A program made the position numbers and the translations under genes. The notes under the pieces are model-generated. The model searched no databases and was not told the DNA's origin. It saw only the letters and a list, made by a program, of their open reading frames with translations. A stretch of DNA of 33,708 bases from a bacterium (GTDB lineage Bacteria; Patescibacteriota; Saccharimonadia; Saccharimonadales; UBA4665): NCBI GenBank assembly GCA_021811685.1, contig JAJZNT010000031.1:1-33708 (forward strand). Reading direction: 5' to 3'. Below, piece after piece: positions 9,902 through 29,585 of the stretch; the first letter of the stretch is position 1; each line of letters begins with the position of its first letter.

Positions 9902-10192
9902 TCAGTTTCTATTTTCTCTGCTGTGCCAGACCCTGATTATTACTACTGTATTTTCGCCCTCCAGCTTATATCTAGTAACATAAGCTCCCGCCCCAAAAGC
10001 TATGAATAGTTCACGTCTGTTCCCGTCGTCAGGCATAGGGCGACCAATTCTTGGTGTGAGTTTAAGTATTTTAGAACCGCGAAGGGTGTTTGATACAGCT
10101 CTTTTAGCAGCTTCGCTATCTTTATCTAATAAGAAGAAATATAGACGTTCAAAGTCTTGTACGGCTTCTGGAAGCCATTTTATTCTTGCCAT
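9902..10192 (-). CDS. RelE/ParE-family toxin
   Basis: 'IKWLPEAVQDFERLYFFLLDKDSEAAKRAV...GRPMPDDGNRRELFIAFGAGAYVTRYKLEGENTVVIIRVWHSREN'. Confidence 0.88.
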   Translation of the reverse strand: MARIKWLPEAVQDFERLYFFLLDKDSEAAKRAVSNTLRGSKILKLTPRIGRPMPDDGNRRELFIAFGAGAYVTRYKLEGENTVVIIRVWHSRENRN

Positions 10193-10449
10193 TTGCGTGG
10201 TTTACCCTGGCTTAAGTCTTTTAGCCAAGTCTCTACCTTTTCGTGCTCAATGGCTTTACCAGTTATAAGATACTGCTCCCACCTTGCATTATCTTCGGCT
10301 TTTTCCTTTTCATATTGCTCCTCTCTCTTAAGGTAGTCTTCTATAGCAGTCCGCATAATCCAGTGAGGTGAGTGCTGTTTTTTCTTAGCCAAGACTTTTA
10401 GTCGTTCACGGGTATTGTCGTCTAGTTTTATACCTTGAGTGGTTGCCAT
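10180..10449 (-). CDS. CopG/RHH-type antitoxin, overlapping and upstream of the ParE toxin
   Basis: 'MATTQGIKLDDNTRERLKVLAKKKQHSPHWIMRTAIEDYLKREE' ribbon-helix-helix; 13-bp overlap with the toxin ORF. Confidence 0.88.
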   Translation of the reverse strand: MATTQGIKLDDNTRERLKVLAKKKQHSPHWIMRTAIEDYLKREEQYEKEKAEDNARWEQYLITGKAIEHEKVETWLKDLSQGKPRKWQE

Positions 10450-11390: not shown

Positions 11391-11657
11391 ATGAAAACAA
11401 TAGGCGCAAAAGATTTAAGGCAAAATATGGACGAAATTCTTGACCGCGTAATAAACGGTGAAGATATTATTATCCAACATCGTTTTAAGAAGCCTGTACG
11501 TCTGAGCGCTATTAATACTTTGGCAAATAAGCACAACCAAAAACTTGCTGGTCTACAAGCGTTCGAAGCAGCACTTAAGAAAGCCTCACCTTTTAATCCC
11601 AATAAGTCTGTTAAGGAGCTGTACCATGAATCTATCACTGACAAGTACTCAAGCTAG
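11391..11657 (+). CDS. Phd/YefM-family antitoxin
   Basis: 'MKTIGAKDLRQNMDEILDRVINGEDIIIQHRFKKPVRLSA'. Confidence 0.8.
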   Translation: MKTIGAKDLRQNMDEILDRVINGEDIIIQHRFKKPVRLSAINTLANKHNQKLAGLQAFEAALKKASPFNPNKSVKELYHESITDKYSS

Positions 11658-12036
11658 TAGCATTTTTCTAGACGCTAATATAGTTTTGGAAATTATCTTA
11701 GAGCGACATAACCAGCAATTATCTAAAGATTTGTTATTTAAATACAGCGATAAATTAAACATCTCATCACTAACCGCTCACCTAATAACCTATTTTGGTC
11801 AGCAACGAGTTGACCTACCAGTATTAAGGCATTTTTTGGAAGATTACACTATACTTTCACTGGACTCTGGAGATTTTGAATGGGCTTTTAATAACATACG
11901 TAATAATGACTTTGAAGATGCACTTCAGCTCGGTGTAGCAATAAGAAACGGTTGCACCAATTTCATTACCTTTGATAAAACACTTGTTGACACCTATTCT
12001 AGCTTAAAGAGCATCTCTATACATCTACTATCTTAA
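11626..12036 (+). CDS. PIN-domain toxin (start chosen at 11626, not the 11545 of the ORF track)
   Basis: 'SIFLDANIVLEIILERHNQQLSKDLL...NDFEDALQLGVAIRNGCTNFITFDKTLVD'; AAGGAG Shine-Dalgarno upstream of ATG 11626; overlaps the Phd ORF. Confidence 0.82.
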   Translation: MNLSLTSTQASSIFLDANIVLEIILERHNQQLSKDLLFKYSDKLNISSLTAHLITYFGQQRVDLPVLRHFLEDYTILSLDSGDFEWAFNNIRNNDFEDALQLGVAIRNGCTNFITFDKTLVDTYSSLKSISIHLLS

Positions 12037-27884: not shown

Positions 27885-28022
27885 AATGAATATGCTTAAT
27901 TTTCCTACCAGTATACTACTTATTGCCTCATGAACGCTGACTTTGTTTGTGAAGGTATATATAACGGCACAATTTTTAGACTGGCACATAAAAAGGTATA
28001 GAAAATATTCTTTTCCAGAAAA

Positions 28023-28050
28023 TTGACATAATTCTATAATTATTTACTAT
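28023..28050 (+). promoter_or_regulatory. Candidate sigma70-type promoter for the small operon
   Basis: TTGACA (28023-28028), 16-nt spacer, TACTAT (28045-28050); stem GAGC-ttaagt-GCTC downstream. Confidence 0.5.
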
Positions 28051-28346: not shown

Positions 28347-28697
28347 GTGTACACTATCCGTAACTTAATGGGTAAAGCGGTTAGCCTATGCACGACAAGC
28401 GGTGTCGTCCTGAAATCGTGGGAGCCCGACAGTTTTGTCGCCTTCGCAGCGCCTACCTTCCGCCCTGATAGATGCGTAGATATCGATGGCCACATAGTCG
28501 AAGTGGTTAGATCTGAGTATAGGCCACTTGTTAATCTTCCAGCTCCAACTGAAGGAGTTTTTTTGCTGGTGACTTATAGTGTCGCAAAAGCTGCCAGATG
28601 CGAGGGGCGTACGACTGAAGATTTACTCACTCCCAACGATGTAATCAAGGACGAAAAAAATCGGATTATCGGATGCACTCGTTTTGCGCGGCTATAG
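28347..28697 (+). CDS. Hypothetical protein resembling a phage/actinobacterial 'NLTPH...VRDExGRIxGC'-type family
   Basis: 'TIRNLMGKAVSLCT...IVEVVRSEYRPLVNLPAPTEGVFLLVTYSVAKAA...DLLTPNDVIKDEKNRIIGCTRF'; AGAAGG Shine-Dalgarno 6 nt before the GTG start. Confidence 0.65.
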   Translation: MYTIRNLMGKAVSLCTTSGVVLKSWEPDSFVAFAAPTFRPDRCVDIDGHIVEVVRSEYRPLVNLPAPTEGVFLLVTYSVAKAARCEGRTTEDLLTPNDVIKDEKNRIIGCTRFARL

Positions 28698-28707
28698 TCA
28701 GTCTATG

Positions 28708-28770
28708 GGAGGGTGGTTAGACGAGGCTTAGATCTCGGTGATACTTAGATGTCTTTGCTAACCACCCTCC
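28708..28770 (+). repeat. 13-bp perfect inverted repeat (long-stem hairpin) between the hypothetical gene and the ribozyme/kinase gene
   Basis: GGAGGGTGGTTAG (28708-28720) and CTAACCACCCTCC (28758-28770); the 37-nt loop contains CGAG...CTCG. Confidence 0.85.
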
Positions 28771-28832
28771 GTGCTATAAAAGTACACTCTATCTCTCTTT
28801 GCATTCTCATTCACTAATTTATCTTGTCAATA

Positions 28833-28885
28833 ATCGTTCTGCGGATGTGTATCCGTGCTGATGAGTCCAAAAGGACGAAAACGAT
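28833..28885 (+). ncRNA. Hammerhead ribozyme (type III topology), predicted cleavage after C28839
   Basis: Stem III ATCGTT/AACGAT; U16.1, C17; stem I TGCGGAT-GTGT-ATCCGTG (two wobbles); core CTGATGA (28858-28864); stem II GTCC-AAAA-GGAC; GAAA (28877-28880). Confidence 0.9.
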
Positions 28886-29377
28886 ATGTTAAATCTAGAG
28901 CAGCAATTAAAGGGTTCAGTAGAACCATACGTTGTTAAGGGTGTTGGTGTGCCTGGAAGCGGTAAAACGACTATGCTTAAGGTTATTGCCCGGAATCTTG
29001 AAATAGTACGAATCTGCCCCGACGATATTCGGCAAGAATTGACCGGTTCAGACGAAGACCAATCGATTAATGACGAAGTATGGGCCGAAGCCTTCCGGCG
29101 TATTGGCGTTAACCTAAAGCTTGGGCGTTCGGTTATAGTTGACGCTACGCATACCGAAGCTAAATTACGCCCTAAACAGGTCGCAAAGTATCGCAGGAAC
29201 GGCGCAGAAAAGGTCATTGCTGTGGTTTTTGATACCCCTCTAGCTGTTGCAAAGCAGCGCAATAAAACCCGAAGCCGAATAGTTCCTCTTTATGTGATTA
29301 ACAGAAAGCACACAGAACTTAAGAAGCAAACGGTTAGTTGCCGTGAGGGATTTGATGCTGTATACGTTGTCAGATAG
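28886..29377 (+). CDS. T4 PNK-like P-loop kinase (AAA_33/polynucleotide kinase family)
   Basis: 'VKGVGVPGSGKTTMLKVI' Walker A; 'ICPDDIRQELTG' (DDxR, cf. T4 Pnkp NRDDYRQ); 'SVIVDATHTEAKLR'; 'VVFDTPLAVAKQRNKTRSRIVPLYVINR' (cf. T4 Pnkp '[26 protein letters not shown]'). Confidence 0.85.
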   Translation: MLNLEQQLKGSVEPYVVKGVGVPGSGKTTMLKVIARNLEIVRICPDDIRQELTGSDEDQSINDEVWAEAFRRIGVNLKLGRSVIVDATHTEAKLRPKQVAKYRRNGAEKVIAVVFDTPLAVAKQRNKTRSRIVPLYVINRKHTELKKQTVSCREGFDAVYVVR

Positions 29378-29496: not shown

Positions 29497-29585
29497 TGGC
29501 GGAGGGAGAGGGATTCGAACCCTCGAGGGCTAATGCCCAACACGCTTTCCAAGCGTGCGCCATAGACCAACTAGGCGACCCCTCC
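29497..29585 (-). tRNA. tRNA-Ser (anticodon GGA), CCA encoded
   Basis: Reverse complement GGAGGGGTCGCCTAGTTGG...CACGCTTGGAAAGCGTG...variable arm...GAGGGTTCGAATCCCTCTCCCTCCGCCA. Confidence 0.93.

Follow-up and report, generated by a model that had tools for sequence, protein, structure and literature searches.

Hammerhead ribozymes of all three types are known from bacteria. Perreault et al. (2011; PMC3088659) found many of them near integrases, as well as flanking single prophage genes in arrays, and proposed that long transcripts are in this way processed to gene-length mRNAs, with activity being shown for some of the ribozymes. Types I, II and III in prokaryotes are also covered by De la Pena et al. 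(PMC6155905, PMC7761336), with their roles left open. Both bacterial type III hammerheads and gene-flanking prophage arrays are hence known already, and the ribozyme considered herein, because bacterial hammerheads of all types have been described, is a member of a known family. A comparable arrangement exists in the RiboJ insulator, an engineered sTRSV hammerhead with a hairpin downstream, which serves mRNA 5′ ends.

The window, i.e. the whole stretch of 33,708 nt that was analysed, derives from a chromosome of the Saccharibacteria, within the Patescibacteria (CPR). A first-pass annotation, made without database searches, had reported an apparently complete type III hammerhead at 28833–28885 on the + strand, in a CPR-like genome, and held that a natural ribozyme of this kind in a CPR chromosome would be notable. 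The features of the locus are listed below, where G284 is a second genome of the same genus.

28012–28050, + strand: promoter-like sites, TTTCCA-17-TATAAT and TTGACA-16-TACTAT, ahead of the ORFs (judged by consensus alone)
28347–28697, + strand: 116-aa ORF with a GTG start, phage-type family phrog_30542, preceding the hairpin–hammerhead module
28708–28770, + strand: strong hairpin GGGAGGGTGGTTAG ... CTAACCACCCTCC, starting 11 nt past the stop codon, no U-tract after it
28771–28832, + strand: pyrimidine-rich linker, last 8 nt identical in G284
28833–28838, + strand: stem III 5′ strand ATCGTT, U16.1 being last (sequence, RF00008 alignment, covariation)
28839, + strand: C17 (H17=C), predicted cleavage 28839/28840 (inferred from the hammerhead fold)
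28840–28857, + strand: stem I and loop, TGCGGAT GTGT ATCCGTG (sequence, family consensus, covariation)
28858–28864, + strand: catalytic core CUGAUGA, C3–A9 (sequence)
28865–28876, + strand: stem II, GUCC-AAAA-GGAC (sequence)
28877–28885, + strand: GAA (G12–A14) and stem III 3′ strand AACGAT, A15.1 being first (sequence, RF00008 alignment)
28886–29377, + strand: 163-aa P-loop kinase, putatively of polynucleotide-kinase type (phrog_505, PF13671), its ATG starting at the base after the hammerhead
29497–29585, − strand: tRNA-Ser(GGA), bounding the accessory region (G284 comparison)

The claim of a complete hammerhead held, with every element that had been named found in its place, and 28833–28885 is a genuine, complete type III hammerhead ribozyme in structure, its catalysis being inferred. 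All requirements of the type III core (CUGANGA, GAA, A15.1–U16.1 and H17) are met, and the core and the U16.1–A15.1 pair are invariant in 97 of 97 aligned relatives. Stem I comprises 7 pairs between 28840–28846 and 28851–28857 around a GUGU loop, its two core-proximal pairs being G–U wobbles; stem II joins GUCC (28865–28868) to GGAC (28873–28876) across an AAAA loop; and, following the GAA at 28877–28879, the AACGAT strand (28880–28885) pairs with the 5′ strand of stem III, including the U16.1–A15.1 pair. The claimed topology held too: the three stems meet at the core, with I and II loop-closed and III open. The sTRSV resemblance of stem I and its loop was likewise upheld, GAAUGUGUAUUC together with loop II AAAA lying near the CPR-family consensus. 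With regard to the loop I/loop II contacts that had been suggested, the loops are of the sTRSV kind and conserved in the family, the contact itself being inferred from loop sequence. A natural type III hammerhead in a Saccharibacteria chromosome is accordingly supported as a claim, with self-cleavage inferred in the absence of activity data. The predicted cut at 28839/28840 would leave a 2′,3′-cyclic phosphate upstream and a 5′-OH downstream. The isolated ribozyme strand does not fold with unusual stability (z −1.2 to −1.6), which is not informative, as unremarkable stability is expected of so short a ribozyme. With the hammerheads of RF00008, sTRSV and plant satellite RNAs it shares all core nucleotides, the open stem III topology and an sTRSV-kind stem I and loop I, whilst differing from them in being chromosomal, in lying 3′ of bacterial genes behind a hairpin, and in scoring below the gathering cut-off.

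The Rfam search that the first-pass annotation had suggested as a check was run, and RF00008 aligns with the element end to end (E=7e-7 locally, E=3.3e-7 on the whole genome), with a score of 37.8 bits against a gathering score of 48.5. This cut-off is not discriminating here, because a second complete type III hammerhead in the same genome (G000:C12:23140-23192, − strand; L002:1496-1548), which has no clear upstream ORF before the contig end, is given only 17 bits or nothing by RF00008. A covariance model, R1, built here from 97 hammerhead copies, scores this second ribozyme at 67.8 bits and that of the window, itself among the training sequences, at 69.7 bits (E=2.3e-18, genome). When the same stem rules were applied to 0.63 Mb of loci, the true core gave 137 matches to hammerhead-like structures, with 0 for 40 permuted cores and 0 for 6 altered GAA triplets. 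As these loci were preselected for hammerheads, the decoy count measures false positives and not abundance; the permuted-core decoys exclude a chance match for the window ribozyme.

Conservation is best viewed against G284, the only other genome of 94 in the family with the same ORF–kinase pair, in which a phrog_30542-type ORF, hairpin, hammerhead and kinase follow in the same order as in the window. The two genomes agree at 35/35 bases of the ribozyme core, stem II and stem III, and at all 8 bases immediately 5′ of the ribozyme, whilst identity is 44 % for the ORF, 64 % for the hairpin, 44 % for the linker and 68 % for the kinase; separate comparisons put the ORF at 40 % identity and the kinase at 64 % similarity. 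All ribozyme substitutions fall in stem I with pairing kept (UGCGGAU/AUCCGUG in the window, UGCGGG/CCCGCA in G284), and the hairpin arms similarly differ in sequence and retain their pairing. The first-pass annotation had held that the hammerhead would be refuted by a motif unconserved where neighbouring genes are; the opposite is seen, with core and stem III exceeding the genes in conservation. Across the 97 aligned hammerheads 96.1 % of cells are paired, and the covariation score is 0.844 versus 0.227 when shuffled and 0.09–0.123 when slid. Compensatory change is likewise established, 14 of 17 pairs being changed on both sides among the 97 copies. Part of this pairing is a product of selection, because the copy detector demanded at least 4, 3 and 3 pairs in stems III, I and II, respectively; the additional pairs are not, and neither is the near-identical fold that RNAalifold, unaided, recovers from the alignment.

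With regard to distribution, RF00008 finds a match (E ≤ 0.01) in 78 of 394 genomes of the class Saccharibacteria and in 0 of 14 control genomes, only 3 of the 394 passing its gathering score; at E ≤ 1e-4, a phylum-wide search matches 26 of 384 genomes, with many families beyond the class represented. R1 (E ≤ 1e-6) places hammerheads in 96 of 388 class genomes, with up to 15 copies per genome, its recall here being favoured because the training copies came from this class. The gathering score thus misses nearly all of these ribozymes (3 genomes versus 96). In a partial scan for the exact core over a set of 85,462 species genomes, the matching records with group-naming titles were almost all Patescibacteria, some other titles reading only 'bacterium'. 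The natural type III hammerheads of this set number several hundred and, in the collections searched, are almost restricted to a single phylum.

CPR-type hammerheads were also observed on short contigs of metagenome-assembled genomes (MAGs) named Polynucleobacter (L149/G777, SSFP01000090.1) and Caldiserica (L140/G778, QMOQ01000101.1), for which binning contamination and transfer are both possible. On 229 genomes of the class of the Polynucleobacter MAG, which was chosen for its match, R1 found none in the other 228 and matches only in that MAG. Amongst viral sequences, 41 IMG/VR contigs (L250–L290) contain the exact core CTGAYGAGTCCAAAAGGACGAAA, and 37 of 42 viral core matches are complete type III hammerheads. 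Within one genus, three genomes (L033, L095 and L029) have a hammerhead directly before rlmH, that of L029 being a natural core mutant, CCGATGA.

The position of these ribozymes was assessed using 138 distinct copies with flanks and naive ORF calls. A same-strand ORF (≥90 aa) stops 0–260 nt upstream of 115 of 134 hammerheads, compared with 26 % of random positions and 67/131 for the mirrored question, and the stop codon lies a median of 95 nt from stem III. The upstream gene is on the same strand in 103 of 133 hammerhead gaps versus 202 of 353 other gaps of ≥80 nt (p=4e-5), whilst the downstream gene shows no strand bias (81/133 versus 236/353 of such gaps) and 40 hammerheads lie between convergent genes; the ribozyme therefore belongs to the preceding gene. 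For about 15–20 % of copies these ORF calls show no clear same-strand upstream gene. The 110 nt before stem III fold with a mean z of −3.61 (61 % below −3), compared with −0.81 for control DNA (7 % below −3) and −1.27 for the 110 nt after the hammerhead. A hairpin of −10 kcal/mol or lower lies within 130 nt upstream in 135 of 138 copies, with a median spacing of 4 nt to stem III (90th percentile 48 nt). Since a U-tract (TTTT) follows in only 7 copies, these hairpins are not intrinsic terminators. An intrinsic-terminator-like site does occur behind 17 of 138 hammerheads (2.4 expected), which are therefore not the sole end signal in those cases. The recurrent order is an orphan gene, its stop codon, a strong hairpin without U-tract, the hammerhead, and then the next gene or its promoter. 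In one genome (G279) four hammerheads follow in succession, the units between them each consisting of a promoter-like site, RBS, gene, hairpin and hammerhead. Pfam families are sparse among the genes before hammerheads (18 in 90 proteins) and plentiful among those behind (38 in 51 proteins at a stricter cut-off, RlmH, GroES, TruB and transporters included). Promoter enrichment after the ribozymes is weak (65/138 versus 52 when shuffled).

This order of parts recurs in the window and in G284. Its hairpin (−34.2 kcal/mol, z −4.4, 0 of 200 shuffles equally stable) has an outer stem of 13 bp and lies 62 nt from stem III, farther than in most copies. Within the linker, TCTTGTCA resembles a block, GCTTGTCAT, found just 5′ of the hammerhead in other Saccharibacteria. 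In many Saccharibacteria copies a shared block, GTCTGCTTGTCAT, also forms the 3′ arm of a long hairpin that abuts stem III on its 5′ side (L019, L022, L025, L045, L047, L050, L068 and others). The promoter-like sites of the region number 5 against 3.5 expected by chance. Elsewhere in the window (9902–10449 and 11391–12036, + and − strands) two ORF pairs resemble toxin–antitoxin modules, one RelE/ParE-like with a ribbon–helix–helix partner and the other Phd-like with a PIN-like partner, as judged from sequence only.

Hammerhead cleavage leaves an upstream 2′,3′-cyclic phosphate and a downstream 5′-OH, and 3′ exonucleases such as PNPase require a free 3′-OH and stall at stable stems. Taken together, this end chemistry and these limits make a hairpin plus hammerhead plausible for forming and protecting the 3′ end of an mRNA that has no terminator. 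A PNPase-like gene with two RNase PH domains is present in 16 of 16 Saccharibacteria searched, whilst the Rho RNA-binding domain and RtcB were each absent from all 16, with controls detected in both searches. The reading favoured here is that the module, i.e. a stop codon, a strong non-terminator hairpin and a hammerhead, recurrent in Patescibacteria 3′ UTRs, forms and protects mRNA 3′ ends. In the window the ribozyme would cut the nascent transcript after C28839, so that the mRNA of the 116-aa ORF would end shortly past the stable hairpin with a 2′,3′-cyclic phosphate, an end that should withstand 3′ exonucleases such as PNPase, and the downstream RNA, here the kinase mRNA, would begin with a 5′-OH. 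In organisms that lack Rho, accessory genes would thereby gain a gene end made by processing, or an mRNA insulator, which frees the mRNA from read-through RNA. The analysis demonstrates the ribozyme's structure, conservation and covariation, the hairpin upstream of it, its place in the 3′ UTR, the absence of Rho and RtcB and the presence of PNPase; there being no RNA data, cleavage in vivo and a protective purpose at the 3′ end rest on inference, and on balance the proposal leans towards being correct, by a modest margin.

The gene that follows in the window merits separate consideration. The nearest structures to its product are 4gp7/4jst (E 1e-12), deposited as 'Metallophosphoesterase', which we take to be the kinase domain of Clostridium thermocellum Pnkp, followed by T4 Pnk entries including 1ltq (8e-4, 2e-3). 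The P-loop and the catalytic Asp and Arg of Pnkp kinase domains are present, with GVPGSGKTT, PDDIRQ and QRNKTR aligned. It resembles C. thermocellum Pnkp and T4 Pnk in its P-loop, PDDIR and RNK(T/N)R motifs, whilst differing in being a stand-alone protein of 163 aa with no phosphatase or ligase domain. A 5′-OH polynucleotide kinase type is inferred from these sequence and structure matches, as is activity on 5′-OH RNA. A search of the genome contigs with back-translated patterns found no kinase homologues. Enrichment of polynucleotide kinases beside hammerheads was considered and rejected as insufficiently supported, AAA_33 genes being present behind 4 of 51, in two lineages only.

Of the alternatives, the one that survives best, though unlikely, is that the hammerhead is chiefly a 5′-leader element of the kinase, which may phosphorylate its own 5′-OH message in a stability feedback, or whose Shine–Dalgarno sequence may be hidden by the fold in stem II. 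In its favour, the ribozyme ends 0–3 nt before the kinase ATG in both the window genome and G284, the kinase resembles Pnkp domains that act on 5′-OH ends, AAGGA in stem II is the best Shine–Dalgarno candidate (10 nt before the ATG, its role being inferred), and no promoter-like site was found between hammerhead and ATG. Against it, a close relative of the kinase occurs in only 2 of 94 family genomes, its own included, with hammerheads being far commoner; the rarity of AAA_33 genes and the lack of downstream strand bias noted above likewise count against it. Since in both genomes the hammerhead runs up to the start codon of the kinase, it may have a role for the downstream gene at this locus; as a general rule, suggested by the many hammerheads that end near start codons, such a role was rejected, there being no downstream strand bias and 40 convergent cases. 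It is also possible that a 5′-OH kinase message made by the hammerhead is the very end type such kinases take, although this is merely suggestive, comes from one genus only, and rests on inferred cleavage.

A second, still less likely alternative is that the hairpin and hammerhead close an integron-like gene cassette that is mobile as DNA, with the ribozyme as cargo or as a tidier of array transcripts. Supporting this, hammerhead-bearing genes are mostly orphans and many genes behind them core genes, tandem arrays exist, and the window module adjoins a tRNA-Ser. In G284 pyrH, tRNA-Ser(GGA) and macB adjoin one another with no cassette among them; its cassette lies at another site, close to a large serine recombinase, IS remnants and tRNA-Ser(CGA), and the module is therefore accessory DNA. 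Against this reading, no shared DNA junction was found outside the hammerhead, and gene mobility does not account for selection on the ribozyme core. Integron attC identity of the hairpin was rejected, as hairpins have no core common to genomes, and integration repeats at the tRNA-Ser end were looked for without any being found.

Much weaker is a retrozyme- or viroid-like element, whose hammerhead ends would be ligated into a spreading circular RNA: repeated copies per genome and the sTRSV-like type III fold speak for it, but this is very unlikely, as the copies are wholly different outside hammerhead and hairpin, most are single and not paired, and the defining features (paired hammerheads around a conserved non-coding unit, plus a ligase) are not met, with ordinary, unrelated protein genes between copies and no RtcB in the 16 genomes. 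Equally improbable is a catalytically dead relic or chance match, for which the score below the Rfam gathering threshold, the lack of activity data and the mutated core of L029 might be cited, but against which stand the 0 decoys versus 137 real matches, the 35/35 identity with G284 beside flanking genes at 44–68 %, and the strong covariation.

Returning to the 3′-end module, a close precedent is that of Perreault et al. (PMC3088659), which is alike in having hammerheads that flank individual genes, in arrays. Their examples are tied to integrases and prophages, whereas those described here are phylum-wide in Patescibacteria, mostly between chromosomal genes, of type III, and coupled to a hairpin in the 3′ UTR. 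RiboJ similarly joins an sTRSV-type hammerhead to an adjoining hairpin, so that the mRNA acquires a defined end, whilst the present arrangement is natural, at 3′ ends, and has its hairpin upstream of the cut. The phylum-wide set, the 3′-UTR placement behind a strong hairpin, and a kinase-type gene at the very next base are shown here and could not be seen in the first-pass annotation. A search of open-access literature (no subscription journals or preprints) found nothing relevant joining hammerheads with Saccharibacteria, Patescibacteria or the candidate phyla radiation, and within that scope neither the hairpin-coupled 3′-UTR module nor its spread through Patescibacteria was encountered.

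A bolder reading would be that Patescibacteria, Rho-less where tested, use hairpin and hammerhead as a general means of forming and protecting the mRNA 3′ ends of accessory genes and, in addition, that the 5′-OH message of the window lineage encodes a kinase acting on such ends; this combined proposition must be regarded as falling somewhat short of probable. The several hundred natural type III hammerheads, mostly missed by the Rfam cut-off, share a uniform position behind a non-terminator hairpin. The role of bacterial hammerheads is called an open question in review (PMC6155905), and their uniform 3′-UTR position in Rho-less organisms makes that question simply testable. If true, the proposal would mean that a large branch of bacteria employs ribozyme-based formation of mRNA ends.
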